Both the position numbers and the translations under genes were made by a program. A DNA stretch of 50,687 nt from a virus, in the IMG/VR virus record IMGVR_UViG_3300026521_000035, positions 1 through 50,687 of that record, one strand, 5' to 3'. The notes below the pieces were generated by a model, which was not told the DNA's origin, did no database searches, and saw only the letters and a list, made by a program, of their open reading frames with translations. Below, one piece after another: positions 308 to 27,947 of the stretch; position 1 is the first letter of the stretch; each line of letters opens with the position of its first letter.

Positions 308-357
308 TATAATTTTAAATCCTTATATAGAATTATATTTAACACAAGCATACTTCA

Positions 358-753: not shown

Positions 754-763
754 GGAGTTACAG

Positions 764-1606: not shown

Positions 1607-1608
1607 AT

Positions 1609-2007: not shown

Positions 2008-2010
2008 TAT

Positions 2011-2463: not shown

Positions 2464-2464
2464 T

Positions 2465-4648: not shown

Positions 4649-4676
4649 TTTCAAAAACAAATAAAGGTTATATGAT

Positions 4677-6659: not shown

Positions 6660-6706
6660 AGTTATTATTGTAAAATTCACACATACTTTAAGAAAAAGGA
6701 TTAAAA

Positions 6707-7000: not shown

Positions 7001-7013
7001 TAAGGATTGAACT

Positions 7014-8069
7014 ATGGATTTAGATAAACTTAGCAATGTAGATACATCAGAGTTAGACACCTCTGATGATTTAGATGATGGAGTATATGAGGAAATTGGT
7101 AATGGCAATACAGATGGAGATGACGATAGTCTTGATGATAAGCTTGATGACATTTTCGATGATAATGACGAAAATGAAGAAATAGACAATGATAGTGATG
7201 ACGACGATGATACATTAGATGATGAGGATAGTGACCAAGGTAATAACACTGACGAGGATTCTGGTATAGTTGTTAATGATACTACTGATGCTGATTCTGA
7301 TGATTCTACTATGTTAATTGACTTAGGTGATAGCAAAGTAGAAGTAAAAGATACAGATGAGTTACAAGCTATTACAAAGACTGCTTTAAAGGGCGATAAA
7401 AGATATAAGCAGTATAAAGATGATATAGCTGTACTTGAAGGTATCAAAGAAGAGGGGTTATCTACTGAAGATTTATACTTATTAGTTGAAGCTAAAAAAG
7501 GTAACAAACAAGCATTAGCTAAGTTACTAAAGGATAGCGGTGTTGATCCGTTAGACTTAGATAATGATGAAGATGTAGAAAACTATAAGCCTAGTGAGTA
7601 TAAAGTAGATCCTAACTATGTTGAGACTAAAGCTATTATATCTGAGTTGCAAAAAGATGAAACTGTTTATAATCAATTTGAAAATCTGTTAATGAAAGAC
7701 TTTGATGATGAAGCTAGAAGAAAGGCATTCAATGATCCATCTATGCTAGAATTCATAGGTGAAACAGTTAAAGCTGGTATATTTGAGCAGTTAGCTCCAA
7801 AATACATGAAGAATAAGTTACTAGGTAAAGGTAATGCTTTAGAAGCTTACATAGCTGCTTATGATGAATTTGCCAAAGAAGCTGCTAGTAAAGTACAAAA
7901 AGCTACTAGCAAAGTTCAAACAGATAGTAAGGCTAAGGCTACTAAACGCAAAAAAGCTAGTGAAGGTTCTAGGAAAAAAGTTAGTACTAAACCTAAAACT
8001 AAAAGTGTTGATGATATGACAGACACAGAGTTTGAAGAGTATTATAGACAAAAAGTAGGAGACTTTTAA
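7014..8069 (+). CDS. Capsid scaffolding protein, acidic
   Basis: The 351-residue protein opens with about 100 residues dominated by D, S, N and E, turns helical in the middle and ends in a lysine-rich, basic tail (residues about 290-330) with a final EFEEYYRQKVGDF. An acidic N-terminus, a helical body and a basic C-terminal end that can dock onto capsid subunits are hallmarks of phage scaffolds. Position directly before the major capsid gene agrees (N4 gp57 slot). The biased composition creates a spurious serine-rich frame on the other strand. Function is inferred from composition and place, not from a conserved motif. Confidence 0.7.
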   Translation: MDLDKLSNVDTSELDTSDDLDDGVYEEIGNGNTDGDDDSLDDKLDDIFDDNDENEEIDNDSDDDDDTLDDEDSDQGNNTDEDSGIVVNDTTDADSDDSTMLIDLGDSKVEVKDTDELQAITKTALKGDKRYKQYKDDIAVLEGIKEEGLSTEDLYLLVEAKKGNKQALAKLLKDSGVDPLDLDNDEDVENYKPSEYKVDPNYVETKAIISELQKDETVYNQFENLLMKDFDDEARRKAFNDPSMLEFIGETVKAGIFEQLAPKYMKNKLLGKGNALEAYIAAYDEFAKEAASKVQKATSKVQTDSKAKATKRKKASEGSRKKVSTKPKTKSVDDMTDTEFEEYYRQKVGDF

Positions 8070-8077
8070 GAGTTCTC

Positions 8078-8102
8078 CTACCTCCGAAATGAGGGTAAAC
8101 TA
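8078..8102 (+). promoter_or_regulatory. Leader element upstream of the capsid gene, matching the one upstream of the SSB gene
   Basis: A short hairpin with CCTC and GAGG arms around the loop CGAAAT is followed directly by GTAAACTA. The same string, CTCCGAAATGAGG then RTAAACTA, occurs in sense orientation before the SSB gene at 30651-30675 on the minus strand. Both copies lie about 65-95 bases before the ATG of what should be two of the most abundant phage proteins. It may be a promoter, an RNA processing site or a 5' mRNA stabiliser; the sequence cannot decide. Confidence 0.55.
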
Positions 8103-8111
8103 ATGAATTGA

Positions 8112-8139
8112 TATACAAGATACTTAGATGTCTTGTGTA
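8112..8139 (+). promoter_or_regulatory. Second leader hairpin before the capsid ribosome binding site
   Basis: Nine base pairs (one G-U) form between 8112-8120 and 8131-8139 around a ten-base loop. It lies between the conserved leader element and the strong capsid ribosome binding site AAAGGAG at 8155-8161. The SSB leader also has a second hairpin in the equivalent place (30600-30620), although the stem sequences differ, so the tandem arrangement rather than the second stem's sequence is conserved. Confidence 0.45.
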
Positions 8140-8166
8140 CAAATTTATTATTCCAAAGGAGCCAAG

Positions 8167-9381
8167 ATGGCTGTATATGTATATAACTCTGGAAATTCTA
8201 CACAAGGTACTCAAGTACAGAATTTCTATAGTAGAATTGCAAGAAGAAAATTAGATCAAGTGTTTAACTTTTCTAAATTCGCTAATGCAAGAGAGATGAT
8301 GTCTCAGGGTAATGGTGAAACATTTAAAGTAAGTACTTACTTTTGGTCTATCCATAGAGAAGTAGTAGATGCTAACGGTAATTATACTGGCGTTAAAGGT
8401 GGTTATATCACTGAAAGAGATATGGCTGAAGTTACTCAACGTCTTACGAATATGAACCTTACAGATGAGGGTGTAGTAGATAAAACTGCTATCTTCCAAC
8501 TTGGTACATTCCGTAAAGTTACTTTCCAAACTCAAATGAAAAAATACGCTGGTATTGTGGAACTTACTGAGGATGTCGAAAGATATTCTGAGGATTCAGT
8601 TCGTGCTTTAACTGTTGAAGATGTTACTATGCAAATGAATGATGCGTATAACTCATTAATGCTTAGAGATATTCTTAACTCTACATTTAAAGTATATGGT
8701 GGTGATGCTACTGCTCGTGATGAAGTTGGTGGGGATGACGATACTAAGTCTAGAAACTATACTCTAACAGAATCCTTAGCTGTAAAAGTTTTTGGCAAAC
8801 TAACTGCTAATAAAGCTAAACCTATGGGTAAAGTAATTGCTGGTCAAAACAGAATTGGTACTAAACCTATCCCACAAGCTTTCTATATCATAGTTGGTCA
8901 TGATATGTACACTGCACTTATCAATAAAGATCTATTCCCTGATTTCCAATCAGCAGAAGAGTATCCTAACCCAGAAAATATCTTACGTATGGAAGGTATT
9001 GAAGAAATTGGTAGACTTGGTCGCTTCCGTATTTGTTACTCTGAAACTATGACTAACTACAAAGCACAAGGTCACAAAGTTTCTGATAAAGGTAATGGAG
9101 AAGGTGCTGATCCATCTGATTACTGTCATTCAGATAAAAATGCTGATGGAGATTATTGTTACAATGTTTATCCTGCTGTTGTAATGGCACAAGACGCTGT
9201 ATCTACTGTAGGTTTACAAGGTAATACTAAACATATGATCTATACTCGTTTCCCTGATGTTATAGACAATGGAAACCCTATTGGTGAACGTGGTTATATT
9301 GCATTTAAATTCAGATATGCATCAGTAATTACTAGACCAGAGCATATGGCAGTCCTAGAAGTGACAACTCCTATTGCATAA
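8167..9381 (+). CDS. Major capsid protein, N4-gp56 family
   Basis: A 404-residue protein that forms the icosahedral shell. The N-terminal half follows the N4-gp56 family pattern: YSRIARRKLDQVFNFSKFA, the glycine-rich loop QGNGETFKVSTY, then EGVVDKTAIFQLGTFRKVTF and the spine helix ELTEDVERYSED. The C-terminal part carries GRFRICYSETM, YPAVVMAQDAVSTVGLQG and an IGERGYIAFKFRYASVI strand. The start is set at 8167, not an in-frame ATG at 8128, because AAAGGAG lies five bases before 8167 and the family starts with MA. Codon use includes more C-ending codons than its neighbours, fitting high expression. A strong terminator-like stem follows. Confidence 0.9.
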   Translation: MAVYVYNSGNSTQGTQVQNFYSRIARRKLDQVFNFSKFANAREMMSQGNGETFKVSTYFWSIHREVVDANGNYTGVKGGYITERDMAEVTQRLTNMNLTDEGVVDKTAIFQLGTFRKVTFQTQMKKYAGIVELTEDVERYSEDSVRALTVEDVTMQMNDAYNSLMLRDILNSTFKVYGGDATARDEVGGDDDTKSRNYTLTESLAVKVFGKLTANKAKPMGKVIAGQNRIGTKPIPQAFYIIVGHDMYTALINKDLFPDFQSAEEYPNPENILRMEGIEEIGRLGRFRICYSETMTNYKAQGHKVSDKGNGEGADPSDYCHSDKNADGDYCYNVYPAVVMAQDAVSTVGLQGNTKHMIYTRFPDVIDNGNPIGERGYIAFKFRYASVITRPEHMAVLEVTTPIA

Positions 9382-9392
9382 CCTCTATTAAA

Positions 9393-9417
9393 TACTAGAA
9401 GGATTTACCTTCTAGTA
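9393..9417 (+). terminator. Hairpin after the capsid gene
   Basis: A perfect ten-base-pair inverted repeat (TACTAGAAGG with CCTTCTAGTA) around the loop ATTTA begins 12 bases after the capsid stop. It is followed by CCTCTTT rather than a clean T run, so it may terminate only partly or protect the capsid mRNA 3' end. Confidence 0.6.
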
Positions 9418-9478
9418 CCTCTTTACAAATAACTCATAATTTAGCTATACTTACACAAATTAAATAAAAGGATTATAG

Positions 9479-9901
9479 ATGGAGTTAAAAGACTTAACAT
9501 TCCAACAGCTAAGAGGTGAATGTAAAAAAAGAGGTATAGCATTTGATAATAAAGATACAAAAGCTATCTTATTAGATAAACTAACTGATAAGTCTATATC
9601 AGAAGTAGATAGAGTATCTAAGTTAGATACTGTTAGAGATAGAATGTCTGTTATGGAAGAAGTTATTGTTACTAAACTTAATCCTGAAGATACTAGAACT
9701 GAAGTTCTTATTACTATCATGAATGCTACAGGCGACTATAGTTATCCAGTTATATTTGGTCAAAAAATGAAGATACCAAAACCAATCATTAAACATATTG
9801 AAAATATGGAGTATCAAGCGTGGAAACGTGTAACTCATCCTACATTAGGTCAACAAGATGTACCATATATGACTAAGGCGTATAGCGTAAGTAAAGTATA
9901 A
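9479..9901 (+). CDS. Post-capsid protein with SAP-like N-terminus, 140 aa
   Basis: The N-terminal 35 residues (LKDLTFQQLRGECKKRGIAF then KAILLDKL) form the two-helix pattern of SAP/HeH nucleic-acid-binding motifs. The rest is a compact domain of unknown type. It begins after AAAAGG and ends 10 bases before the next start. In N4 the slot after the capsid gene holds gp55, a small protein of unclear role; equivalence is by position. It could bind DNA near the portal vertex or inside the head, which is inference. Confidence 0.6.
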   Translation: MELKDLTFQQLRGECKKRGIAFDNKDTKAILLDKLTDKSISEVDRVSKLDTVRDRMSVMEEVIVTKLNPEDTRTEVLITIMNATGDYSYPVIFGQKMKIPKPIIKHIENMEYQAWKRVTHPTLGQQDVPYMTKAYSVSKV

Positions 9902-9911
9902 AGGAGAAGCT

Positions 9912-10451
9912 ATGTCAACAATACCTAATTTTACTATAGGTAGTATGCCAAAAATACCGCAATTACAACCAAATATTACTAACCAAGCTGCAGTAGCTAA
10001 TGGTGAATTTGGTAATAATATACCTGATTTTATAAAGGCTAATAATGTACCTGATTTTTCTAAGATAGGCAGTTCAGCAGAACTACTTAAAGATCCAAAA
10101 GCTTTGGCTTGGTTAAATGATCCAGCTAACGCAGAAACAGTAGGTAAACTATCTGAACAAGGCGCTTTTGATCATCTAAACAAAGATGGTGATTTTAAAA
10201 CAGATAAATCTTGGTTCTCTGGAAATAAAGATATGATAAATACAGGTATATCTATAGGTAAATTAGGTTTAGGTATAGCCGACTACTTATCAAGAGCAGA
10301 GTATAATTCAGCTCAAACAAAATTAGCTAAAGCTAATACAACTGCTGTTAGGCAAAATACAGAACAAGCCAAAAAAGAATTTAATAGATTAAATAAGTTA
10401 CGCAAACACCTAACATCTTCGTACGCTTCTTCCAAACCTGCTATAGCTTAA
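9912..10451 (+). CDS. Hypothetical virion protein, 179 aa
   Basis: Preceded by AAGGAG six bases upstream. The first 60 residues are low-complexity, rich in N, P, I and A; the C-terminal 70 residues are a long helix (AEYNSAQTKLAKANTTAVRQ and on to KKEFNRLNKLRKH) with one small hydrophobic patch (GISIGKLGLGIADYL). The helix with a short amphipathic, membrane-like patch resembles small ejection proteins, but the family is not recognised. Confidence 0.6.
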   Translation: MSTIPNFTIGSMPKIPQLQPNITNQAAVANGEFGNNIPDFIKANNVPDFSKIGSSAELLKDPKALAWLNDPANAETVGKLSEQGAFDHLNKDGDFKTDKSWFSGNKDMINTGISIGKLGLGIADYLSRAEYNSAQTKLAKANTTAVRQNTEQAKKEFNRLNKLRKHLTSSYASSKPAIA

Positions 10452-10509
10452 TTGAATAATAATCCCTATTTAGTTATAATTCTACCAATAAATAATAGAA
10501 GGAACTAAT

Positions 10510-12525
10510 ATGGGATTATCATTAGCTCAAACCGTTAAAACTGGTGGAACTACAAACTTTATTAAACAAGACACTAGTTTTATGGACACCCTACAACAAG
10601 ACTTAGATAAAAAAATAGATTTACAAAACAAAAAGAATGCACTAAAAGGACAGATGTACTTAGATAGTCAATTATCTACTATTGAAAATGATCCTAATTT
10701 ATCAGCAGAAGAAAAGAAAAATAAATTAAGTTCAGTATACGATAACATGGTAGGGGAGTATAAAGCATCAGGCGATATTGGTACAGCACAATCATTACTA
10801 TTAACTAAACATAAAGCTTTAGATGCTATGTATAGTAAAGCTATGGATAAGCAAAACATGATGGTATCATTAGGTGTATTAGATAATAGTCAATATGCTA
10901 CTAAACAAGAACAACTAAAAGCTGCTGAAGCTTATACAAAGTCTCTTAGTAAACCAGAAGATGTAGCTAAATTCTATAAAACCTTTAATGAAATGTCTAC
11001 TACTGATAGAGAGAAATATGAGTTACAGCAATCGGTTAGTAAATTAGTTATTCCTGATATCCAAAAAATAGTTTCCACTAAAACCTCGTTTCATAGTAAG
11101 CGAGAGATGTTAGGTGATTTAAGAGCTAAATACAAAGCTAAAGGGGATCTAGATAAAGTAGCAGCTATAGATAACTATGTTAAAACTAATCCTGAATGGT
11201 TACACGAAACTAAAGAAAATGATTTAGGTTTAGCAGCTAGGATAGACTATAAGTACAAAAGCAGACTACAAGGGGAAAAAGCCTCTGCTGATTTTTCTAA
11301 TACTACAATGCAACATCAATATAAAATGGAAGAAATAGTTGCTCAAAGCAAAGCTAATAAAGGTGCTAAGATATATTCCCCAGAGGAGCTTATGACAAAT
11401 AGTAACAGTAGTACAGATACTAATACAAAAGGATCTAATGTTGTAGTCAATAAACAAGACATAGAAGGTAATAAAAAGAAAAGAGAAATAGAACAAAATA
11501 CTTTAATGAAGTTACGTAAAACTTATCTAAGTGATAAGTATGCTCCTACCATAACTGAGACAGCTACTAGAAAAGTTAGGGGTAGAACCATGATGGATTC
11601 TAACAGAGTAAAACTAAATCCTAACGCTAAAATAAATCCTATTATTAGAAATATAGCTAAAAAATATGGTATTAATTTAACACCTAACAGTGGTTGGCTT
11701 AATAAAGATGATGTCAATACTCTTATTACTGAGTATAAAAAAGTAAAACAAGATAGTACTGGTAAATATAATAAGTACGTATTTGGTAAATCTACACCAA
11801 AATACTTACAAGCGTCTTTTAAAGAGCAAGGATTATCACCTTCTATGAGTAAAGATAAAAATATAAAACCTATTAATGCTAATTTTACAGAGGTAGATAA
11901 AATACTAGATAAAAGTTTATCCCCTTATAAAGGTAAGACTTTTACTAAAACAGAAATGAACAGCATAAAAAAAGTATCTAAAACACTAGTTAGTCCTAAA
12001 CTCATAAAAGCTATTAAAACATCTGAAAAAGAGATAGTAAAAACTTATGGTAAAGGCACTCCAGCTTATACAAATGCAATGAATACTCTTTATGGTACTG
12101 TGCATAAAAAGTATGATAAACTATATGGTTATGATTTTGTAGATAAAGCTATAGCACCTACCGTACATAAATCTGTAGCATCTGAGGAGATAGCAGATAC
12201 TATGAAAGCTAATGGTATTAAAAGTGATAAAAAAGGTTTCTATATCACTACAACTAGTGTTAATAATAGTAGTTTAAAAACAATGGATAATTATGTTAAA
12301 ACTATGATGCCACAAAACTTCTCAGTACTATACTATAAAAAAGGCCTAGGTACAAAAGATAGAATGGAACTCTATAAAGAATTTATAGAGAGCTTACATA
12401 CAGATGGTACATTTGATGAGGAAAACTCAATAGAGGGTAATAAATTTTACCTAACAAAAGAATCGCGTAAAACTATTAATAATAAGTTTGGTGCTTTCAT
12501 GAGAAAAAAAGGTTATAACAAGTAA
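10510..12525 (+). CDS. Internal virion protein candidate, 671 aa
   Basis: A long helical, lysine-rich soluble protein without Cys clusters or membrane segments. The start is backed by AGAAGGAA eight bases upstream. It is the first of three large proteins in the order 671, 1320 and 2063 residues that ends with the virion RNA polymerase; N4 has the same arrangement (gp52, gp51, gp50). Those N4 proteins are packaged inside the head and ejected, so the same fate is likely here. No enzymatic motif is seen. Confidence 0.65.
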   Translation: MGLSLAQTVKTGGTTNFIKQDTSFMDTLQQDLDKKIDLQNKKNALKGQMYLDSQLSTIENDPNLSAEEKKNKLSSVYDNMVGEYKASGDIGTAQSLLLTKHKALDAMYSKAMDKQNMMVSLGVLDNSQYATKQEQLKAAEAYTKSLSKPEDVAKFYKTFNEMSTTDREKYELQQSVSKLVIPDIQKIVSTKTSFHSKREMLGDLRAKYKAKGDLDKVAAIDNYVKTNPEWLHETKENDLGLAARIDYKYKSRLQGEKASADFSNTTMQHQYKMEEIVAQSKANKGAKIYSPEELMTNSNSSTDTNTKGSNVVVNKQDIEGNKKKREIEQNTLMKLRKTYLSDKYAPTITETATRKVRGRTMMDSNRVKLNPNAKINPIIRNIAKKYGINLTPNSGWLNKDDVNTLITEYKKVKQDSTGKYNKYVFGKSTPKYLQASFKEQGLSPSMSKDKNIKPINANFTEVDKILDKSLSPYKGKTFTKTEMNSIKKVSKTLVSPKLIKAIKTSEKEIVKTYGKGTPAYTNAMNTLYGTVHKKYDKLYGYDFVDKAIAPTVHKSVASEEIADTMKANGIKSDKKGFYITTTSVNNSSLKTMDNYVKTMMPQNFSVLYYKKGLGTKDRMELYKEFIESLHTDGTFDEENSIEGNKFYLTKESRKTINNKFGAFMRKKGYNK

Positions 12526-12535
12526 AGGATAAATT

Positions 12536-15500
12536 ATGGGAAATTTGATGGATTATATGAATACTGTGTATAAAGATAGTACACCTACTGAAGTTGCTGA
12601 TGTAGCAAAAGTAGAAAAGTTTACAGGTAAAGATACCTTATCGGATTATGCTGATACTTTATTTAATACAGAAGCACAATTAAATAAGTTTGATGATCCT
12701 AACAAAGCAGAGGTAGAGTTAGGTAGTAACTTAGTAGCTAAAAAAGATAAAGACGGTAATATACTATTTGATAGTCGTAATACAGATAATGATAATTACA
12801 TTGGGGAATCAGAAACTGAGAAGCTAAATAGTAACCCATACAGTTTTTACTCTAATAAAAAAGCTTTTAATACTATAAATACCTATAAAGCTAATCTAGT
12901 TAATGAGATAGATAAGGTAACTTCTACTAAAGCTGGGATGGAAGCTAATGGTCAAGATACTACAGAAATTGATAATCAATTAAATATACTCAATAAACAG
13001 TTATCTAATCCATCTAAATTTTATTCCCAAACACTAGCATCTGATTTAACTGATATGGGATACAATGGCTTTACAGATCCTAAAGATATTTATAATTTTG
13101 CTAAGCAGAAAATTTATAATGAAGAAGATAGATATGCAGGTTATACTTCTAATTTAGCTAAAACATTCATTTCCAGAGCTAAAGCACTAGGTGCTGAAAT
13201 AGTGTCTGCCCCTGTAAAAGCTATTGGTTTTGGTTTTGACTCTATAGCGAAAGCTACTGGAATTGTAGATGACACTACTGATAGTCCTATATATGATATG
13301 TTAATGGACTTTGCTAATAACAGTGATTATTACACAGGTGTAGATAACTATTATGAACAAGAAGGTGCTGAAACAGTTAGTAGTGCTATAGATAGTTTAT
13401 TTAAAGGTAATGTAAAAGATTTTGCATATAAACTATCTACGGTAAAAGGTAAAGCTTTAGGGCAATGGTTAGCCAGATCATTACCAGATATGGCATTATT
13501 TATGTTAACTGATGGGACTAGTTCTTTAGTAAGCCATGGAGCAGTAGCTCTAATGGGGTTAGGTAACGCTAACGTAATTATAGATGGATGGGAAAATAAA
13601 ACAGGTAGAAAGATGTCAGCTGACCAAGAAGCTATGACATATCTTTTAGGTGTTGCTAATTCCTATATCCAAAAAGGTGGTGTAGAAGTACTATTTGATG
13701 GAGCTAAAGCTTCCCTGATAGCTAATGGTAAAGAGATATTAGATATTGGTAATGCTATGACTAAAGACTCTATAATTACTACGGCTTTTCTGAAGACTGC
13801 ACAAGCTACAGGTAAATTAGGTGTTGGTGCTGTAACTGAAGCTATACCAGAAGGTATAGATGGAATGTTCTCAACAGTAGCATCTAACTATGGTATTGAA
13901 AGTAAAGATGTTAATGTCCTTATTGGTAACCATTCTAAAGAAATAGCAACACAAGCTGTTATAGGAGGTATAATGGGTGCATCCCTTAGATCTCCGGATA
14001 CTGCTTTTACTTTTGCTAACCAGATGATTAAAGCTTCTGGCGTAAAACTAGCTAAAAACGCTATTGAAAAAGGTTCTAAGCTCTTAACACCTCAAGATAT
14101 ATTAGATATACAGAAAAAAGGTGAGAAATACAAATATAATATAGAAGCTGCTAAAAAGTTCAGAGACCACGTAGAAGATAAAATTAATAACGGAGAGTAT
14201 AAAACTATACAAGATATACTAGATGATCCTGTATTAGATACTGATTATACTCAAGATATACTAAATGAAGCTAGAGATAGAATTAATGGTGCTGAAGAGA
14301 TTATATCTGATATAGGTAAAGCTGAAAGCATTGAAGACCTATATGCTGTTGCGACTAGTGGTGATACAGTTGGTTTAGTATCAGATATAGCTAATGGTGA
14401 TAAAATAGAAACACCAAATGGTTATACTGGTAATTTAGATGGTAAAGAAAAACCTGAAGGACATTACCATAATATACTACGAAAAGCATTAGATAGTATT
14501 TTAGGTGATCATGAAAACAGAGTAACTATACTTGAAAAATCTAAAACTGTAGATGCTATAAATAAATTAGATCCAACTGTAGTTAATGGGATAAAAGAAG
14601 GTAGAAAGAAAGCTTATAAAGAACTATCTGACGAAGATAAAGCTAGTATGTCAGAAGAAGATTATGTAAACAAGTCTGAATTATCTAAAGAAGACAAATC
14701 ATATGTAAGCTTACCCAATAAAACTAAATTAAGAGATAACTCTCCTGAAGCTTTACAAGATGTTAAAGAGGCTTTAAAAGAAAATATCAGAGATAGATAT
14801 TTAGATGATAGTCCTGAAGCTACTACTAAGCTATTAAACCTAGTGAGAGCAAAACTGAACCAAGCAGTTGCAGAAGCTAAGATTACACATGGTGCTTTTA
14901 ACACTAAAGAATACACATTAAAAGTTCTTGGTAATGTAGGTAAAAAAGCATTAGAATTAGCCCCTAAAGATGTACAAGAACAATTAGATAAACTAAAAAG
15001 AATGTTAGTAGAAGAAGGTAAAACAGTAGAGGAAGCTATTAAAAAATTACCGTCATCTGCAATTAGAGGAGTATTGTGGGATTTATTATCCGGTAAAACT
15101 ACTGATAAAGTAAAAGATGGTATTAGTCAATTTTCAGATGAGCAAGTAAAACAATTAGATTCTTATTTAGTTAACAATGGTTTTGATAAAGCGCATAACT
15201 TCTTAGTAGAGGTTAAAGAAGCTAGAATAAAGGTAAAACAGGAATGGGCTGATTTTAATGAGCAAGATGACTACTTTGTTAGTAGAAAAGATAAACTAAT
15301 GAAATGGATAGACTCATTAAATCTTGATGAAGTGGAAGGTGGTAGTGAAGCATTAAGCCATATCAGAGCTGCTTATGAACAAGCTAAGATGAGAAAATTC
15401 TTATCACATAAACGAGTACAAGGAATGTTAAAAGCTCTTGTATCTCTTTATAATGATAGAGAAAAGAATATCAAAAGTATAGAACAATTACTCGAAAATG

Positions 15501-16498
15501 CTCAAAGTAAATTAGAAGACCTAAGTGATAAAGCCGATAACTATATAGAAAATATAGATAAAAATACAGTAAAAGCTGAAATAAAAAAACAAGAAGAAGT
15601 AGTACTATACTATAAAGACTTGTTGAACAGTTATAATAATTTAGATGAACTAAATAGTAAAATAGATGAGTTATTAACTAAAGATTATGATACAGGGTAT
15701 TTTAAAAAAGGTGGAAAAGGGTATGCAACACTTGAGTATATAATAGCCCATTCTCCTTATAGCGTATTAAGTTTACCGCCAGAACTAAGTTCTCTATTCC
15801 TATCTAACAGTAAAGTAGGTGATGGTGTTAATGCTAAACTTGAAATAAGTGAAGATGTACAGAAATCTTTAAGTAATTTGAGAACTACTATTGCTACATT
15901 AAGTGAAAGTAACCCAAAACTAGCACAAGAACTTAAAAATAAAATGAATATTGGTGGTAGTCATTACAATATACGTACTATACTTACTGGTTTAGGTTAT
16001 GATAATGTAGGCTTAGGCAAGGAAGTAACAGAGGTAGATAAATTAGTAACTAAAGTAAATACTGTATATGCTAATAGCTATGATAAAGATATAAATGGAA
16101 ATCCTTATCCAAATGATCTTGATCCTCAAAATAGATACCTTTATGACTTACATATATTCAATAGTATAACAGAACAAGATACTTATAATAATGCTTATAA
16201 GGTATTGAAAGATAGAAGAGGTATAGCTACTAAAGATGTTAGTAATGAGCATGAAAAGAATTTACTATCATTAAGTCTATTTGCTCCTATAGAACAATTA
16301 CATACACTAGAACAAGATGTAAACAAAGTTAAGACTGTTACAGAATTAACTCTTGAAGGTTCTGACCTAACTATTGAAGATAGTGCTACAACAGTTGGGG
16401 ATTTTAAAAAATTACAAGATACTATAAATACTATGTTCAAATCAGAGAACCCTAAAGAAGCTTTAGATAAACTTATAAAAACATTTGAAGGTTGTTAG
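12536..16498 (+). CDS. Large internal virion (ejection) protein, 1320 aa
   Basis: The N-terminal 200 residues are helical and charged. Residues about 290-490 are a small-residue-rich, moderately hydrophobic block (MALFMLTDGTSSLVSHGAVA; AVIGGIMGASLRSPDTAF) with the phrase TEAIPEGIDGMFSTVASNYG, a pattern I associate with phage internal virion and polyvalent proteins. The remainder is long helical, coiled-coil-like sequence. The gene ends two bases before the RNA polymerase start, in a different frame. It may supply functions that in N4 lie in the N-terminal domain of the much longer vRNAP, which is inference. Confidence 0.65.
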   Translation: MGNLMDYMNTVYKDSTPTEVADVAKVEKFTGKDTLSDYADTLFNTEAQLNKFDDPNKAEVELGSNLVAKKDKDGNILFDSRNTDNDNYIGESETEKLNSNPYSFYSNKKAFNTINTYKANLVNEIDKVTSTKAGMEANGQDTTEIDNQLNILNKQLSNPSKFYSQTLASDLTDMGYNGFTDPKDIYNFAKQKIYNEEDRYAGYTSNLAKTFISRAKALGAEIVSAPVKAIGFGFDSIAKATGIVDDTTDSPIYDMLMDFANNSDYYTGVDNYYEQEGAETVSSAIDSLFKGNVKDFAYKLSTVKGKALGQWLARSLPDMALFMLTDGTSSLVSHGAVALMGLGNANVIIDGWENKTGRKMSADQEAMTYLLGVANSYIQKGGVEVLFDGAKASLIANGKEILDIGNAMTKDSIITTAFLKTAQATGKLGVGAVTEAIPEGIDGMFSTVASNYGIESKDVNVLIGNHSKEIATQAVIGGIMGASLRSPDTAFTFANQMIKASGVKLAKNAIEKGSKLLTPQDILDIQKKGEKYKYNIEAAKKFRDHVEDKINNGEYKTIQDILDDPVLDTDYTQDILNEARDRINGAEEIISDIGKAESIEDLYAVATSGDTVGLVSDIANGDKIETPNGYTGNLDGKEKPEGHYHNILRKALDSILGDHENRVTILEKSKTVDAINKLDPTVVNGIKEGRKKAYKELSDEDKASMSEEDYVNKSELSKEDKSYVSLPNKTKLRDNSPEALQDVKEALKENIRDRYLDDSPEATTKLLNLVRAKLNQAVAEAKITHGAFNTKEYTLKVLGNVGKKALELAPKDVQEQLDKLKRMLVEEGKTVEEAIKKLPSSAIRGVLWDLLSGKTTDKVKDGISQFSDEQVKQLDSYLVNNGFDKAHNFLVEVKEARIKVKQEWADFNEQDDYFVSRKDKLMKWIDSLNLDEVEGGSEALSHIRAAYEQAKMRKFLSHKRVQGMLKALVSLYNDREKNIKSIEQLLENAQSKLEDLSDKADNYIENIDKNTVKAEIKKQEEVVLYYKDLLNSYNNLDELNSKIDELLTKDYDTGYFKKGGKGYATLEYIIAHSPYSVLSLPPELSSLFLSNSKVGDGVNAKLEISEDVQKSLSNLRTTIATLSESNPKLAQELKNKMNIGGSHYNIRTILTGLGYDNVGLGKEVTEVDKLVTKVNTVYANSYDKDINGNPYPNDLDPQNRYLYDLHIFNSITEQDTYNNAYKVLKDRRGIATKDVSNEHEKNLLSLSLFAPIEQLHTLEQDVNKVKTVTELTLEGSDLTIEDSATTVGDFKKLQDTINTMFKSENPKEALDKLIKTFEGC

Positions 16499-16500: not shown

Positions 16501-19500
16501 ATGAAATGTAATTTACTTAGTGCGGTTAGTAATATAATAACTATAAATAAAGACAGTAATCCTATCCAACAGGTTACTGATCTTGACCCAAAAGATTATC
16601 AGAATTTTAAAGCAGAGAGTTGGAAAATACCAGCAGAAAGTATAATAAATTTATTAAAAGGTAAAATGGATATAGATAATAGTTTATTACCGAAAGGTAA
16701 AAAATATAAACTTAATAATGCTATAAATCTATATCATTCAGACTTAACACCAGAATTTAGTAAAGCCATAGAAAATAAAAACTATACTAAACCCTATTTG
16801 TTAGCTTTAAATGAACTTATAAGTAGTCAGAAAAGTGAGTATGACAAATCTAATAGTGTAACAAACCTAAGTGATGATGATAAGAAATCTATTATGTCTA
16901 TTAAAGACGATCAAATGCAAGTGAACTTATCTAGGAGTGCTGAGGTTATAGGTAGACAATTTTTTATATCTAATGGTAAAGTGTTAGCTACTAAAGTTGT
17001 AATAAGTGAAGATCCTATAACTAAAAAACCAATATATTCTACAGTAGATAGTGTTACAATATCTAATATGCACTATAAAGTAGGTATGTCCATATTAAAA
17101 AGTATGGAACAAGATGGTTTTGTAAATATAGAAGAGGAAGGTACTGTTATAAATGATGTAATAGATAGAACAGAAAATTTAACTAATTCCAGTAGAGATT
17201 GGAGTAAACCTACTAGAAAAGCTATTACTGCTACACTAAACTTAGATAAGATAACATTTAATGAAATATCTGATAAAGAAATAAAAGCTTTAAAAACAGG
17301 TAAAACTAACTACACAACTATACATAAATTAGTTACTGGTATAAGAGCATTATCTCAAGTTATTTTACCAGTACATGAGACTAAACCTACACATACAGTA
17401 ATGAATAGAAAAGAACTAAAAAAGAGAGATGCTTTCTATACTACTGATTCAACCGATAAAGCTAGAGAGTATGTACATGAAAGTGAAGTAGTAATAAATA
17501 AGTACTTTATGGATGTATTAAAGCATATAAAAAGTATATACGATGAAAGTAACGATGAAACTGAATTTATGAGATTATTAAACGAAAAAGGTTTTGATTA
17601 TGAGACTTTGGTTCATATGTTCGGTATTCAAGGTATGGAAGGTAAGCATGAAGATAGAGAAGTATCTATAATAGGTCAAAATTTATCTAAGAAAACTCCT
17701 TTGTTTGAGTTAGTAGCTAACTTAGATTTATTTTATGATGAACAAGGTAATTTAAAAAGTGTACACAATATATACAATATAACTAAGAATAGTAGACTAG
17801 GTATGCTTAATAGTGTTGGTAATAGCCAATCTTCTGTATTTATAAGACATTTATTCACATCTAAAGGCGAAACATTAAATCTAACTAATAAACTAGAAAT
17901 GGCTAAAATAGCAGAAGATTTGGCATCATCTATAAAAAACTTTAAAATAAAAAATGCTAAAGGTAAGTTAATAGAACTAACAAAAGATGATGTATCTGAA
18001 TTTATTGCTAATCCATCTGGTGATAATAAGTTAACTAAACTAGTTGATATGTTTGATAAGCTATTCAAGTCTGATACTATAAATATAGAACAACAAAAAG
18101 CTTTTCTAACTAATGTACAGAATGAAGGTAGAGCTAAGTCTTCAGAAGTTGTAGAAGTACTATCTGCCTTGTCTGACATAAGAGAAGCTACTAATGAAGG
18201 TAGAACAGAAGTTATTACACAATATTCTACTAAACCAGATGGTACAGCATCAGGTGTTACTTTTCAATTTTTACAATCAATGGGCTACGCTAAAACATCA
18301 GATGACAAACTACTTAAAACATTAGGTAGGTTAGGTATGATAACTGGTAACAGTATCAATACTGATGAAACTTTAAAAGATGTATATAATATAACATCTA
18401 ATTTTGTTAAAAGTTTAATTGCTACAAGCAAAGAAGAGGAAGATATAGATGAGGATTCTATAATACCAAGTGCTTTAACAGAGGATAATAAAAAGAAAGC
18501 TGAGAATTTAAAACAAGCATTAATACAAGTATTTCATGACAATATAAGAGACATGGTTAAAGATCCAACTATGGTTATTAACTATAATCAAAAAAGAGCT
18601 GGAGCATTATCCACTATGGCTGATAGCATAGTTGATAAGATATTAGATAATATAGATGAAAGTATGCCTTATATTAGATCTCTTGGTATATATGAAGAAA
18701 CTACTACCGATACTAACATAAAAAAAGATACTGAGCTTAAAACTAAAATAAAAAACAAACTTATCAAAGATAAAAACTCAGTAGTTAATACTTTATTTGA
18801 TACAGTAACTAAAGAAGTATCTCCTATGGTTAGTAAGAGAATAGATTTACTTACTAAATTGTTCAATAAACTACAAACATTACAAGAAGGTAAATTGTTA
18901 AAGATATTACCTGCTATGGCTGTATTAGATAGTATAGGTACAAAAGATACTAGAAAACATGGTATGCCTTTAACTAAGACTATGAATATACTAAGAAAAA
19001 CAGATGATGGTAATGTAGTTAATACTATGGAGGAAGTAAATAATCTAAATACTCTTGTAGTTAGTGTTATCCACTCAATGGACTGGGCTACTATGGCAAT
19101 AGCTATAAATAATGCTATGCAAGTATATTATGAAACATATGGAGAAAGGTATAAAGGAGCTTTAATTCCTGTTCATGATGAATTGGTAGCATCACCAAAG
19201 TTTAATACTATATTTGAAAAAGAATATACTAAAGCAATGGCTGAAGTTGTATATAAATACTCTCCCGAAGAACAGTTAGCTAATCAAATAGAGTTAATAG
19301 GTAATTTAGATGAAGAGGGTAAAAATTTAATTAGAGAAGCTAGAGAAGCTACTGAAACTAAAAAAAGTAATATGGATACATATAAAATAAATGTAAAACC
19401 TGGTGTATTATTTGGTAGTAATGATAGTGAAGTAGAAGTAAACGTAGAAAATAAAACAACTGATGTAGATGGTAATGTATTAACTGAATTATCTAAAAAA

Positions 19501-22500
19501 TCTAAAACAGTAAAAGCTTTTATAGATTTAGGTAAAACTATATTTAATACTAACAAAGAAGATAGATATGATGATAAAACACAAAAAGTATATATAGACT
19601 TTAAAGGTAATAATGGCAATCTAGAAGAGAGAGTAGAACATGAAATAACTCATTACTTTACTACTGAGTATTTAGTTAAGCATTATAATGATGTATTTAA
19701 TACTGAGGTAAACAATGAAGAAGTTAATAGAATACGAAGTCTATATGCTACTATAGATAAATTATCCAACAGAAAAAATGAATTAGATAAAAAATCTAAC
19801 TTATTTAAATTGTTAGATAATTGGTCTGGTAATAAAGAAAATAACTATAGAATGTTAGCAGAGTTCTTATCAGAGTTTAATTCCAGTAAAACTTTTAAAG
19901 AAGATGTAAAAAGTATATCAGATACAAAAGAACTAAAACCATTAATTCGTTTAGTTGAATATATAACTAAATCAGTAAAACATTTTATTGCTTCTCTGGA
20001 AGGTAAACAAGTTGATCTAGTTATAGATTATAATTCAGTAAGTGATGTTATAGATGATATAATAAATACATCTATAGAAGGTAAAACTGGTAGAATTACT
20101 AGTAGTAAAAAAAGATATAAAGGATATACAGAAGATTTAGAAAATGCTTTTGATGATACTACACTATTTTATGATAAATATGAACCTTATACAGTAGAAA
20201 GGTTAGCTACAAAGGTATCAACTAATATAAATGATACTATGAAGAAATTAGTTACCGATAAAGCTATAAAACTAACTTCTAAAGGTATTGATAAAATAGA
20301 TAGTGTTTTATACAGAAAAATGCCTAAGTATGCTAAAGCTAAAGATTATGTAGTAGATATATATAATAGTAACGAGCATATACAACAATTGATGCACACT
20401 ATGAAGGTAGATAATTTCTCTAAAGCAGGTAGGTTAGTTAAAAATAAAGTTTTAAGAATGATAACTAATATAAAAGAAGAAGCTACAAAGAGAGAAAGTA
20501 TGATAGTAAGTGAATATAATAAACTTACTAGAACTTACAGCAAAAAAGATAAAGAAGCTGTATATGAGTTAATACAAGGTTTACCTTTACACAGAGTATT
20601 TTTATCTCCTGTTGAATTATCTACAAAAGAAGATATTGATAATAGAATTTTGGAGTTAGAGCATAAATTAGGTAAAAGAGTTAATAAAGAAGTAGTAGAT
20701 ACAGTAGCATATTTAAAAGATGGTAAACTAAGAGCTAATACTATTTATAGCATAGAAAAAACTTATGGTTATACAAAAGAAGCTAAAGAAGTAGAAGAGT
20801 TAGTAGCATTAAAAGCTATTACAGGTAACGGACACTTAGATGCTTTTATAAAACTAAACAAACATAAAGAGTTATTAAATTTTATAAAAGATAATGTATT
20901 AGCTAGAAATACTTTATTATCTGATATTGATAACAATGCACCTATACATAAAAACCAAGATGTATTAGACGGTAACTTTAGATTTAAAACTGTAAGTATA
21001 GATGATATAGATCATTACTCTTATGATGAAAATCATGGATGGAAGATATTAAAAACACCAACTAAAGATACGTTTGGTATTGTATATAGAGAAGTAATTG
21101 ATGAAGAATTTACTGATAATGCTGGTGTAACTGAAGACTATAGAAATGAAGGTATACCTTATCAAGCACAAGATGACTTTACTGATAACATATTAAATAA
21201 TAGAATACTACTAACTAAAGAACAGAAAGAGAAAGTAGGAATAGTAAAAGATGCTGGTACACTACTAGCTAATAGTGTAAATCATTTGTATAAGATAAAA
21301 GAAACTAGAGCTATTAGATCAATACTAGTAGCAGATGGTATTAGATATAAATTAGATGGTACTAATGAGGGTTATAACAAAGTAATAGATATGATAACTA
21401 ATGAAACTTTAGATCATCCATGGTTCTTAGCTAACACAGACGATAAAGCACTTAGATATGAAGATTTACCAAAAGAAATAAAAGCTAAATATAAACCTAT
21501 AAAAACAAGACTTAGTAAAGACGGTAAATTTAATGAAAAAGTATGGTTAGTTAGAAAGGATATGGAACACTGGTTAGTAGGACAACATGCACATTCATTC
21601 TTTAGTAACTCTAAATTACAAATGACATCTAAGTGGTTAAAAAACTTTATATCAATGTGGAAAATAGGAGCAGTCATAACTAATCCTAAAAAACTAATGT
21701 TAGATACAGTGTCAAATAACATACAGTTAGGTATCATGGGAGTACCACTTAGTTTTTCCACTAAAGTACAAGCAGATGTAGTTAAGGATTATAATAAATT
21801 TATAGAAATAAGAAATCTAATAACTAAATACGAAATGTTAAAACTATCATACCCTGATAATAAAGATATTTATAATAGTAAGATAAGAGTATTACAGAAT
21901 AGGCTAAAAGGTAATTTAGTTGCTGAAGGTAGTGATTTAGGGTTTATAAATTCATTATCATCTGATATTGTAAATCAAAGTAACCATACGGTAAAAGGGT
22001 TAAGTAGGGATATAAAAGAAGTATTAGATTGGTTTACTAAAGATAAAAAAGGTAATCCTAATAAACTAAGTAAAATACTAGAGGTTGCTTCTATCGCAGG
22101 TTATGATGGTCCAGCTATACTGAACAAATTTGGTAAAAAACTGCTAGAATTGAAACTATCACCTAAAGAGATGGATAACTACATAGTAAAACTAAGTAAT
22201 AATCTAAAAGATATAAAAGATAGTAAAGATGCTACTGCTAAATTAGAGCAATTATTACTTACACCTAGTAATGAACTAGTAAAATTAGGAACTACAGTAA
22301 ATGATATAACTGATTTAACATTTAGAATGGCTTTATATAAACATTTAATAAGGAATGGGGTTAGTAAAGATGAGGCAGAGATAACAGCTATAGAAGCTAC
22401 AGCAGATTATAAAGAAGAGTTACCATTGCTTTGGAAAACATTAAGTAGATATAATATAGTCAAATTTCCAGCATTTAATCTAAGATCATTAAGACCTATA

Positions 22501-22689
22501 TTACTGATGTTAAGAAGAAGGGGTGTTAGTAGTATTGGTGAAATGTCCCTGCATGAAGAATTGAATTTAGGACAGTATGAGAGTGTATTAGATAGTATGG
22601 CTAGAAAAGTAGAACATCCTATGTCACTATTAGATAGTCCATTAGAGGCAGTAGGTATTGATAGCCTTATACCAGTCCATATGTGGTAG
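16501..22689 (+). CDS. Virion RNA polymerase (N4 vRNAP-like) with an HExxH domain, 2062-2063 aa
   Basis: A single-subunit, T7-superfamily RNA polymerase core is readable at residues about 420-930. ITKNSRLGMLNSVGNSQ near residue 432 matches the TxxGR element. PDGTASGVTF is motif A (Asp580). RDMVKDPTMVINYN is motif B with exact R-x3-K-x7-Y spacing (R683, K687, Y695). VIHSMDW precedes PVHDELVAS, motif C (Asp893). In N4 the homologous enzyme is packaged, injected and transcribes early genes. Downstream, VEHEITHYF (1047-1051) with Glu1121 in MLAEFLSEF looks like a zinc metallopeptidase. The C-terminal 900 residues are helical and unassigned. ATG 16501 is preferred to the in-frame TTG at 16492. The protein is much shorter than the roughly 3500-residue N4 vRNAP and lacks a long N-terminal domain. 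Confidence 0.85.
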   Translation: MKCNLLSAVSNIITINKDSNPIQQVTDLDPKDYQNFKAESWKIPAESIINLLKGKMDIDNSLLPKGKKYKLNNAINLYHSDLTPEFSKAIENKNYTKPYLLALNELISSQKSEYDKSNSVTNLSDDDKKSIMSIKDDQMQVNLSRSAEVIGRQFFISNGKVLATKVVISEDPITKKPIYSTVDSVTISNMHYKVGMSILKSMEQDGFVNIEEEGTVINDVIDRTENLTNSSRDWSKPTRKAITATLNLDKITFNEISDKEIKALKTGKTNYTTIHKLVTGIRALSQVILPVHETKPTHTVMNRKELKKRDAFYTTDSTDKAREYVHESEVVINKYFMDVLKHIKSIYDESNDETEFMRLLNEKGFDYETLVHMFGIQGMEGKHEDREVSIIGQNLSKKTPLFELVANLDLFYDEQGNLKSVHNIYNITKNSRLGMLNSVGNSQSSVFIRHLFTSKGETLNLTNKLEMAKIAEDLASSIKNFKIKNAKGKLIELTKDDVSEFIANPSGDNKLTKLVDMFDKLFKSDTINIEQQKAFLTNVQNEGRAKSSEVVEVLSALSDIREATNEGRTEVITQYSTKPDGTASGVTFQFLQSMGYAKTSDDKLLKTLGRLGMITGNSINTDETLKDVYNITSNFVKSLIATSKEEEDIDEDSIIPSALTEDNKKKAENLKQALIQVFHDNIRDMVKDPTMVINYNQKRAGALSTMADSIVDKILDNIDESMPYIRSLGIYEETTTDTNIKKDTELKTKIKNKLIKDKNSVVNTLFDTVTKEVSPMVSKRIDLLTKLFNKLQTLQEGKLLKILPAMAVLDSIGTKDTRKHGMPLTKTMNILRKTDDGNVVNTMEEVNNLNTLVVSVIHSMDWATMAIAINNAMQVYYETYGERYKGALIPVHDELVASPKFNTIFEKEYTKAMAEVVYKYSPEEQLANQIELIGNLDEEGKNLIREAREATETKKSNMDTYKINVKPGVLFGSNDSEVEVNVENKTTDVDGNVLTELSKKSKTVKAFIDLGKTIFNTNKEDRYDDKTQKVYIDFKGNNGNLEERVEHEITHYFTTEYLVKHYNDVFNTEVNNEEVNRIRSLYATIDKLSNRKNELDKKSNLFKLLDNWSGNKENNYRMLAEFLSEFNSSKTFKEDVKSISDTKELKPLIRLVEYITKSVKHFIASLEGKQVDLVIDYNSVSDVIDDIINTSIEGKTGRITSSKKRYKGYTEDLENAFDDTTLFYDKYEPYTVERLATKVSTNINDTMKKLVTDKAIKLTSKGIDKIDSVLYRKMPKYAKAKDYVVDIYNSNEHIQQLMHTMKVDNFSKAGRLVKNKVLRMITNIKEEATKRESMIVSEYNKLTRTYSKKDKEAVYELIQGLPLHRVFLSPVELSTKEDIDNRILELEHKLGKRVNKEVVDTVAYLKDGKLRANTIYSIEKTYGYTKEAKEVEELVALKAITGNGHLDAFIKLNKHKELLNFIKDNVLARNTLLSDIDNNAPIHKNQDVLDGNFRFKTVSIDDIDHYSYDENHGWKILKTPTKDTFGIVYREVIDEEFTDNAGVTEDYRNEGIPYQAQDDFTDNILNNRILLTKEQKEKVGIVKDAGTLLANSVNHLYKIKETRAIRSILVADGIRYKLDGTNEGYNKVIDMITNETLDHPWFLANTDDKALRYEDLPKEIKAKYKPIKTRLSKDGKFNEKVWLVRKDMEHWLVGQHAHSFFSNSKLQMTSKWLKNFISMWKIGAVITNPKKLMLDTVSNNIQLGIMGVPLSFSTKVQADVVKDYNKFIEIRNLITKYEMLKLSYPDNKDIYNSKIRVLQNRLKGNLVAEGSDLGFINSLSSDIVNQSNHTVKGLSRDIKEVLDWFTKDKKGNPNKLSKILEVASIAGYDGPAILNKFGKKLLELKLSPKEMDNYIVKLSNNLKDIKDSKDATAKLEQLLLTPSNELVKLGTTVNDITDLTFRMALYKHLIRNGVSKDEAEITAIEATADYKEELPLLWKTLSRYNIVKFPAFNLRSLRPILLMLRRRGVSSIGEMSLHEELNLGQYESVLDSMARKVEHPMSLLDSPLEAVGIDSLIPVHMW

Positions 22690-25747: not shown

Positions 25748-26839
25748 CTAACAACAAGACGGACAACTGTCGGATAGAAGGTCCGCCTCTTTAGTTTCTA
25801 TTTTCTTTCTGCCGTCTGATGATGTTGAAGCTCTACTACCTGCCGTACTTCTTAGATAGTATAAAGACTTTAAGTTCTTTTTCCAAGCTAAGATATGTAA
25901 ATCGGATATAGTTTGTACATTACTATTAGCTGGTATAAACAGATTAACAGATTGACCTTGGTCAATAAACTCTTGTCTATCACTAGCTTGTTGTATAACA
26001 TGTCTCTGATCTATCTCAAAAGCTGTTTTAAATACATCTTTAGTATAGTCATCCATCCATTCTAAATGTTGTACAGAACCTTCATGTTTTTGTATTGAAG
26101 CCCATTGTCCATCTATCCAATATTGTTTTTCTGGTACAGTTGTATGTGGTAATGCTTTATCATAGATTTCTTTATCGTAATAGTCATTTACTGCTCTACC
26201 CAAATATTTATTCTTAATGGGAAAACTACCTTGTTTAACTTTCTTAGTATAACTATTAGTGATGATAGGTTCTATACCACTAGATGTAACATTACATAAA
26301 CTAGATATACTCATAGTTGGGGCTACAGCCATAGTAGTTATATTTCTTCTATGTGTGCCCAGTTCTTTAGATATAGGACATCTAGCTGATTTAGGTAATG
26401 AAGCTTGGTATTCATCTATAGTTTCTCGTATAAACTTAAATGCTTGTTTATTTATACCTACAGCCATAGGACTCTCAAATGGTATATGTTTTCTTTGTAG
26501 ATAACTATGATACCCCATAACACCTATTCCGATACTACGTTCATACATAGCTGAACGTCTAGCATTTTCAAAACCTTCTCTACCATTAGTTTTATCTATA
26601 AAGTCTTGTAGTACATTATCTAAGAAATCGTTAATATCTATAATGAATTGTTTATTGTCTTTCCATTCATCATAATATTCTACATTTGCAGAAGCTAAAC
26701 AACATACTGCTGTATAGTTTGTATCTGTATGTAGATAGATTTCTGTACAGATATTACTAGATGTAATATCCCAACCTTTAAGATAATATTCTTCAGCTTT
26801 TTGCCTATTAACATTATCTATAAAGAATAGGAATGGTTC
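25748..26839 (-). CDS. nrdA: Ribonucleotide reductase alpha subunit, exon 2 (C-terminal 363 residues)
   Basis: The coding sequence extends upstream of the first ATG at 26548 to the intron boundary at 26839. It begins EPFLFFIDNVNR and reaches the catalytic NICTEI motif (Asn266, Cys268 and Glu270 of the spliced protein), as in class I NrdA. Near the C-terminus KSLYYLR gives the tyrosine pair of the radical path, and the final CPSCC is the redox-active tail that accepts electrons from thioredoxin or glutaredoxin. Splicing to exon 1 (27948-28658) predicts about 600 residues. The ORF stops one gene before the 119-residue protein, ten bases away. Confidence 0.9.
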   Translation of the reverse strand, partial: EPFLFFIDNVNRQKAEEYYLKGWDITSSNICTEIYLHTDTNYTAVCCLASANVEYYDEWKDNKQFIIDINDFLDNVLQDFIDKTNGREGFENARRSAMYERSIGIGVMGYHSYLQRKHIPFESPMAVGINKQAFKFIRETIDEYQASLPKSARCPISKELGTHRRNITTMAVAPTMSISSLCNVTSSGIEPIITNSYTKKVKQGSFPIKNKYLGRAVNDYYDKEIYDKALPHTTVPEKQYWIDGQWASIQKHEGSVQHLEWMDDYTKDVFKTAFEIDQRHVIQQASDRQEFIDQGQSVNLFIPANSNVQTISDLHILAWKKNLKSLYYLRSTAGSRASTSSDGRKKIETKEADLLSDSCPSCC

Positions 26840-27947
26840 CGTTGTATTCTACATAAGCCGCAACACTCATGTACGTTCTCAGTAGTACTTGTTAGTACTA
26901 CATGAACTGCTTATACTTTCGTATAAGACTAGACTATATCTTCACCTACAGCTTTACCTGTTTAGGTGTTGTGTATTTCCACTACCATCAGCTTGTAGTG
27001 TACTCCCTCTCGGGATAGTCGTTGAACTGAATTACAGTTATTTGTACGATTTAAAATTAACTACTCTACGAATAGTTTCCTTATGAACATTGAATTTTTC
27101 AGCAAGTACTTTTATACCTAAAGCACTGTAGTTGTTTCTTATATATTCAATGTCTTCTAGTAAGAATTTGCTATTTCCATGATTTATACCACGTGGTACG
27201 CATTCTGAGGTTATTAGTCCTGTTTTCCAAGCATGTTCGTTATTTTCTTTATTACTGCACCACTCTAAATTAGTATAATGATTATTAGTCTTATCTCCAT
27301 CTATATGATTAACTTGTGGTAAGTTAAACGGGTTTGGGTGATAAGCCATACATACCAATCTGTGTGTAGCTAAGTTTTTGACAAGCCTACCAGAACCATC
27401 ATCTGCATACTTAGTTACAGCAGTTTGTCTATATCCTTTGGTCTTTTTGAGGTTACTCATAACCTTTCTGCTATCTAAAGATATAATATACCCTTCTTTT
27501 GCTGCACCGTACTTAAACGGGCTATTTAGAGGTATTATTTTTATACCTGAAGGCAAAGGTAATTTACTGTATATGTCTTTTAGATTCCTAGTTATTTTAT
27601 TTAGTATACTCATTGGTATATTATAATTATCTACAAAGTAACTCTTAGGATGTATATATAACTCTGTAACTACTTTATGTAGTAATTCATCACTTATTTT
27701 AAATCTTTTTTGTTCTAATGCTTGATGTATATCATCTATACCTTCTAACATTAATCTTTTCTGTAATTCTAGCTGCTGATTGTCCATTGCATACCCCTTA
27801 TATATTTTTTATAAGTGTATTATATCGTCTCTATTATTAAACGTTCATTAAAGGTTACCCCTTAATTGTAGTTAGACACGCTTTAGGATGTTCCAGCAAT
27901 TAACACAATATACATTATACATTTCTGTATAACTGGGCAATTTGTTC
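26840..27947 (-). mobile_element. Group I intron in nrdA, T4 td-like, with HNH endonuclease gene
   Basis: The core is recognisable on the minus strand. CAACGACTA and AAGATATAGTC would pair as P7, and CTATCCCGAGAGGGAG is the P8-like hairpin. An upstream AATTGCTGGAA is the start of the P3/P4 region, and extra hairpins follow P7 as in subgroup IA2. The 5' exon ends in GGGGGT; its last GGGU pairs with GCCC in the intron, giving the U-G pair that marks the 5' splice site. The intron ends in G before GAACCATTC. The splice keeps NrdA in frame. Boundaries are predicted from pairing and protein continuity. Confidence 0.85.
27038..27787 (-). CDS. HNH homing endonuclease inside the nrdA intron, 249 aa
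   Basis: A homing endonuclease cuts intron-less alleles so that the intron spreads by repair. The HNH motif lies in THRLVCMAYHPNPF (142-155), QVNHIDGDKTNN (158-169) and YTNLEWCSNKENNEHA (171-186). The C-terminal HGNSKFLLEDIEYIRNNY with HKETIRRVVNFKSYK is a NUMOD-like DNA-binding helix-turn-helix. The N-terminal 90 residues are an unassigned helical region. The ORF lies in a peripheral loop of the intron, between the P3/P4 strand and P7. AAGGGG precedes its ATG. Confidence 0.88.
   Translation of the reverse strand: MDNQQLELQKRLMLEGIDDIHQALEQKRFKISDELLHKVVTELYIHPKSYFVDNYNIPMSILNKITRNLKDIYSKLPLPSGIKIIPLNSPFKYGAAKEGYIISLDSRKVMSNLKKTKGYRQTAVTKYADDGSGRLVKNLATHRLVCMAYHPNPFNLPQVNHIDGDKTNNHYTNLEWCSNKENNEHAWKTGLITSECVPRGINHGNSKFLLEDIEYIRNNYSALGIKVLAEKFNVHKETIRRVVNFKSYK

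Follow-up and report, generated by a model that had tools for sequence, protein, structure and literature searches.

A virion RNA polymerase of the N4 type encoded in two adjoining genes, with cysteines only at their junction

The virion RNA polymerase (vRNAP) of phage N4, gp50, is a single chain of 3500 residues, in which an N-terminal domain (NTD, residues 1-906) is followed by the RNA polymerase domain (RNAP, 998-2103) and by the two CTD subdomains, C1 (2124-2375) and C2 (2376-3500) (PMC12633501). In the model of N4 ejection, the NTD comes after gp51, and a linker then keeps the RNAP anchored to the membrane; the passage of the 3500-residue protein through a tail channel of about 35 Å is an open question (PMC12633501). 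The absence of cysteine from the N4 vRNAP and some of its relatives was known before (PMC2784036, PMC4837373), and a passage in PMC2784036 that cites Kazmierczak 2002 ties it to host entry. In a reference set, the vRNAP length, NTD included, ranges from 2842 to 3820 residues in one chain (PMC10654107). The vRNAPs of Alteromonas phages R22Y (gp36) and V19 (gp29) have 2083 and 2082 residues; the former is named a Schitoviridae virion RNA polymerase in sections of PMC11705849 that mention neither a split nor cysteine.

The DNA stretch that we analysed (the window, 50,687 bases) is a complete IMG/VR virus record, which is classified as linear and a probable fragment; it probably lacks the early-gene end of the genome. 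Its gene at 16501-22689 (Table 1) opens at an ATG with GAAGG upstream, a better start than the possible TTG at 16492, and encodes 2062 residues, in line with the approximately 2060 given by a first-pass annotation of this DNA. Sequence comparisons confirmed the product as an N4-type (Schitoviridae) vRNAP. Among 50,697 phage records searched by tblastn, its only relatives were the R22Y and V19 proteins, which match 91% of it at 24% identity (R22Y, E=1e-100; V19, E=2e-94). The phrog_2206 profile 'virion RNA polymerase' matched the window at 21640-22005 (E=3.9e-8) and also the V19 polymerase core (E=1.4e-19). A profile of the window, V19 and R22Y proteins aligned by hhalign with a profile of 10 full-length fused vRNAPs (99.9%, E=1e-31). 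This alignment put TxxGR and motifs A and B in register; the HSxD element and motif C aligned only in a low-scoring additional profile alignment. The C-terminal region (C2) matched the vRNAP CTD profile (E=1.3e-23, 99.6%), and the C1 region aligned to it separately (E=3e-5), including the HExxH motif, which reads HEITH here and HELVH in N4. The match to V19 and R22Y, the fused-vRNAP profile alignment and the phrog_2206 match together place the motifs beyond chance. The genomic context agrees with the N4 vRNAP slot to which the gene had first been assigned, because gp52-like, gp51-like and vRNAP genes follow one another as in N4. The window portal matches 617 records, of which the named ones are schitoviruses.

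Table 1. Positions of the vRNAP genes, their neighbours and their sequence elements in the window
Feature	Position	Strand	Basis
gp52-like ejection protein, 179 aa, 0 Cys	9912..10451	+	position; phmmer to G001 counterpart, E=8e-6
gp51-like ejection protein, 671 aa, 0 Cys	10510..12525	+	mainly position; weak similarity to G003 counterpart
vRNAP NTD as its own gene, 1320 aa	12536..16498	+	similarity to G001 and G003 NTDs; position
Cys1320 (TGT), last residue and sole Cys of NTD protein	16493..16495	+	
vRNAP RNAP+C1+C2 gene, 2062 aa	16501..22689	+	tblastn, motifs, phrog_2206, hhalign
Cys3 (TGT), sole Cys of RNAP protein	16507..16509	+	
Single-subunit RNAP domain core, residues 130-980	16888..19440	+	hhalign E=1e-31, motif register
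TKNSR (TxxGR motif), R432 in ATG numbering	17794	+	
Motif A, D580 in DGTASG	18238	+	
Motif B, R683-x3-K687-x7-Y695-N	18547-18588	+	
HSxD element (HSMD), H858-S-x-D861	from 19072	+	
Motif C (VHDE), H892-D893-E	from 19174	+	
HEITH, HExxH (zincin-like) motif of C1, residue 1047	19639..19653	+	matches N4 C1 in PMC12633501
C2 subdomain of vRNAP CTD, start approximate	20200..22686	+	hhalign E=1.3e-23, phrog_2206

Several searches were less informative. The PDB yielded no RNA polymerase match to the RNAP protein by sequence or profile, the profile search returning chance matches only, and phmmer and Pfam searches with this protein alone gave nothing informative. Exact-peptide scans of viral contigs with vRNAP peptides of P0001, R22Y and G001 found no additional relatives, and one scan over genome contigs found no match. 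An AlphaFold2 model of the polymerase core, with four distant relatives as input, reached a pLDDT of 38; the RNAP match therefore rests on the profile alignment.

All catalytic motifs of a single-subunit RNAP (TxxGR, A, B and C) are present in order in the window protein, and every motif that the first-pass annotation had quoted, including the HSxD element ahead of motif C, was found in its place. The window protein has in common with T7 RNA polymerase DGxxSG as motif A, R-x3-K-x7-Y as motif B, the HSxD element and HD in motif C; unlike the window protein, the T7 enzyme has 883 residues, is no virion protein, carries Y-G and HDS, and has no C1 or C2. The Y-N of motif B and the H-D-E of motif C had been singled out as unusual. 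These residues are indeed present, but they are clade variants within ordinary family variation, since V19 and R22Y carry Y-D and H-D-D, LIT1, VBP47 and PG11 carry H-D-A, and N4 carries F-D-G. In PolA, motif C takes the form VHDE, and the longer VHDELV is PolA-like, which could make the protein a relative of the family-A DNA polymerases and not an RNA polymerase. We rejected this identity, the chance of which is negligible: in the profile alignment to vRNAP, motif A (DGTASG) and TxxGR are in register, Pfam gives no DNA_pol_A match in the protein, and a separate DNA_pol_A gene lies at 34765-35631. Window residue 311 pairs with N4 residue 1317 in the profile alignment, so residue 1 corresponds to about N4 1007, where the linker between NTD and RNAP ends (PMC12633501). 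The RNAP domain begins around residue 1 and not near residue 420, as had been proposed, and the polymerase itself lacks no part, because the TxxGR Arg is residue 432 here and 424 in N4 mini-vRNAP.

The preceding gene, already recorded in the first-pass annotation as one of 1320 residues, encodes a protein similar to the NTD that the IMG/VR contig G001 encodes on its own and to the NTD part of the fused vRNAP in the IMG/VR contig G003, and it lies between the gp51-like and RNAP genes, as do its counterparts in V19, R22Y, G001 and G009. The Smith-Waterman score of the window NTD was 261 against the G001 NTD (97.7 ± 13.9 for shuffled sequences, z=11.8, 0/300) and 170 against the G003 NTD (85.7 ± 11.6 shuffled, z=7.3, 0/300); the G003 vRNAP gene leaves the contig end past the polymerase core and is evidence for the NTD-RNAP fusion only. 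The match to the G001 NTD was missed by phmmer and was recovered by blastp, hhalign and the shuffle test. Direct similarity to the N4 NTD was weak (z about 4), and a direct profile comparison with N4-type NTDs was not significant; the link runs through G001 and G003. The NTD and RNAP-CTD proteins add up to 1320 + 2062 = 3382 residues, versus 3500 in N4. Because of this total, and because RNAP, C1 and C2 are all present, we consider the vRNAP to be split and not reduced. A "reduced or domain-split" enzyme had been suggested at first; the second alternative holds, with the NTD at 12536-16498 and RNAP+C1+C2 at 16501-22689, and the first does not. As separate genes for 1320 and 2062 residues, the window vRNAP stands outside the single-chain range of 2842-3820 residues.

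The anatomy is that of an N4-type vRNAP, and it departs from the fused members examined in two respects, the single chain and the lack of Cys. The window shares with N4 gp50 the order NTD/RNAP/C1 (HExxH)/C2, the single-subunit RNAP motifs, the slot after gp52 and gp51, and freedom from Cys everywhere outside the window's junction, whereas gp50 is a single chain with motif C F-D-G, motif B Y-G and 0 Cys. The window vRNAP is not Cys-free: each piece has one Cys, and both are at the junction, where the RNAP ATG follows 2 nt past the NTD stop in frame +2 relative to the NTD. Of 53 same-strand neighbouring gene pairs in the window, only the NTD-RNAP pair has this terminal-Cys pattern. With R22Y and V19, the window shares the motif style (Y-D/N, H-D-D/E), a gene of its own in place of the NTD, which in R22Y encodes about 1008 residues, and the junctional Cys pair, but the portal, capsid and NTD genes of these two phages are of a different lineage. 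The first-pass annotation, although supported in part, had overlooked the junction Cys, the recurrence of the split in relatives and the mosaicism of the genome, described below.

The split between NTD and RNAP is common to the window, V19, R22Y and G001, and a split between RNAP and CTD occurs in Alteromonas phages AD45-P1 and AD45-P4 and in the IMG/VR contig L062. The vRNAPs of AD45-P1 to P4 and L062 thus resemble that of the window in being split with a junctional Cys pair and differ from it in the site of the split. In AD45-P1 (L022:30624-42348) and AD45-P4 (L071), two adjoining ORFs are parted at RNAP|CTD with such a pair. The G009 vRNAP is in three pieces of 1393, 1472 and 868 residues; its locus (L055:865-12099) comprises an NTD gene, an RNAP gene with a C1-like region without HExxH, and a C2 gene. 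The last G009 piece begins near window residue 1220-1238 (E=1e-41), beyond the HExxH at 1047, which places the second break at about the C1|C2 boundary. The other schitovirus vRNAPs examined, 17 of 17, are single chains of 3022-4093 residues.

The distribution of Cys follows this division. The fused vRNAPs contain 0 Cys in 58,048 residues (n=17, including A5 from the same host genus), and the split ones contain 17 Cys in 25,617 residues of 15 pieces, 16 of them at the 16 junction ends. A Cys stands on both sides in 8 of 8 split junctions found, which represent three distinct interdomain sites. Upstream pieces have it 0-4 residues before the C-terminus, and downstream pieces have it at residue 3-6: ...FEGC / MKC in the window, ...LRCE / MNC in G001, ...ICGI / MSTC and ...SICKN / MSEC in G009, ...HCKQ / MTIC in AD45 and ...NSC / MITC in L062. 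None of the outer ends of split pieces has a Cys, and the G009 middle piece has one at each end. Under random placement, the probability of Cys at the junction ends is about 3e-38, a value that ignores shared ancestry. The eight junctions are not all independent and the number of fissions is uncertain; on the conservative count of three sites, the Cys placement remains well beyond chance. The gp51/gp52-type ejection proteins checked are Cys-free except for one Cys in V19 gp25. The sole non-junctional Cys in any split piece is residue 2101 of the G001 RNAP protein (L060:16301-16303).

An apparent split could also arise from a sequencing frameshift or from gene calling, or could be bypassed by readthrough or frameshifting to give a full-length chain. 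This view has been put forward for AD45-P1 and pSb-1, the AD45-P1 split being handled as a gene-calling mistake or readthrough (PMC10654107), and the GenBank record of the AD45 vRNAP is labelled 'potential frameshift'. The V19 and G009 junctions are indeed in one frame, and the pSb-1 vRNAP, annotated as three ORFs, has a mid-chain break that resembles a frameshift error. However, the frame changes at the junctions of the window, R22Y, G001, AD45 and L062, which rules out readthrough for these five. Each downstream ORF has an ATG start no more than about 26 nt from the stop of its upstream neighbour, and a Shine-Dalgarno-like sequence is often present; the breaks fall at interdomain boundaries in independent genomes. 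Moreover, the pSb-1 break has no junction Cys, so that the Cys rule tells true splits from errors; by this rule the AD45 split is likely real despite its label. An artefact or a bypassed split is therefore very unlikely. We also considered split inteins and rejected them, as the pieces begin and end directly at start and stop codons.

The paired Cys suggest a mechanism that preserves the continuity of the chain. The NTD and RNAP-CTD pieces would be packaged together in the virion, and the C-terminal Cys of the one and the N-terminal Cys of the other would form an interchain disulfide, which we infer from the sequences, once the virion is outside the reducing cytoplasm. The NTD would engage the gp51/gp52 ejection channel and the inner membrane and pull the unfolded RNAP-CTD through the tail and the periplasm, so that both would travel as one covalent string, like the fused N4 protein. 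The reducing host cytoplasm would then open the disulfide, and the RNAP, freed from the membrane-bound NTD, would transcribe the early genes. Disulfides stabilise the virions of other tailed phages, as in a crassvirus (PMC10172136). The product of 16501-22689 is, quite probably, the polymerase+CTD half of a naturally split vRNAP with its NTD half encoded upstream, the two being ejected together as a disulfide-linked pair. It also appears rather likely that in several marine schitovirus lineages the vRNAP has been cut at NTD|RNAP, RNAP|C1 and C1|C2, and that each split carries a terminal Cys pair serving as a redox-sensitive disulfide staple, which would keep one chain in ejection and be released in the host cytoplasm.

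Alternatively, the split may be true and the pieces may reassociate non-covalently or be ejected independently, in which case the terminal Cys would contact gp51, bind metal with a third partner or be a relic of the lineage; two free Cys could serve otherwise, for example in partner or metal binding. The disulfide is deduced from the sequences, and the RNAP and CTD contacts in N4 are already weak and non-covalent (PMC12633501). Yet Cys flank every junction, at three sites, and occur almost nowhere else; a relic would not reappear at new junctions, and partner binding does not require Cys at both ends. We regard this alternative as unlikely, though appreciable, and prefer the disulfide-linked pair.

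What is new is that each naturally split vRNAP found carries Cys at both sides of the junction and the fused ones carry none; a literature search in an incomplete library found no paper on a vRNAP split with Cys. The survey in PMC10654107 excluded proteins shorter than 2500 residues and required ExDGxxxG, and the window protein, with 2062 residues and KPDGTASG, would be lost from it. The length cut-off and the assumption of a single ORF hid split vRNAPs from surveys. The restriction of Cys to the cut ends argues for chain continuity in ejection, with the domains as separable beads. Since redox conditions can be controlled from outside the phage, split vRNAPs offer a direct experimental handle.

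The window genome is mosaic, with a structural half (1-16498) related to G001 and G003 and a replication half (16501-50687) related to V19 and R22Y. The portal, gp57-like protein and MCP have about 48-69% identity to G001/G003 and 27-37% to V19/R22Y, whereas the primase, helicase and others have 43-55% identity to V19/R22Y and a weak or no match in G001/G003. Portal and MCP trees group the window with G001 and G003 (100/100), and the RNAP tree groups it with V19 and R22Y (100/100), as does the primase tree (87/85); because the RNAP tree has long branches, just the grouping of window, V19 and R22Y was used. The NTD follows the structural lineage, which places the switch, at about 16.5 kb, at the NTD|RNAP gene boundary or close to it. 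A split would let the NTD recombine with structural genes and the RNAP with replication genes, the pattern present in this genome. The same switch, with the left half nearest G001/G003 and the right half nearest V19/R22Y, would be expected if the contig were a metagenomic chimera that joined an NTD and an RNAP from different phages. This is very unlikely. Codon usage and GC3 are nearly equal on both sides and unlike either relative, the codon usage distance being 0.094 between the two halves and 0.25-0.57 to other lineages; in a second contig, G009, a structural module similar to that of the window (MCP 68%) is likewise linked to a CTD of the window/V19 type; and the Cys of the two sides match as a pair across a stop and a start 2 nt apart.

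Other features were observed on the minus strand of the window. The region 25748-28658 contains the C-terminal part of a ribonucleotide reductase large chain, an HNH endonuclease at 27038-27787 and an AD45-similar ORF; the reductase gene is possibly broken by a homing element. At 33404-35631, the C-terminal part of DNA polymerase A occupies a 288-residue ORF, behind which lie several short ORFs. In V19 and AD45, a single DNA polymerase has about 600 residues, and that of the window is possibly split or decayed. A tRNA-Lys (ttt) lies at 29675-29749, and a tRNA-Lys is reported for R22Y too (PMC11705849).
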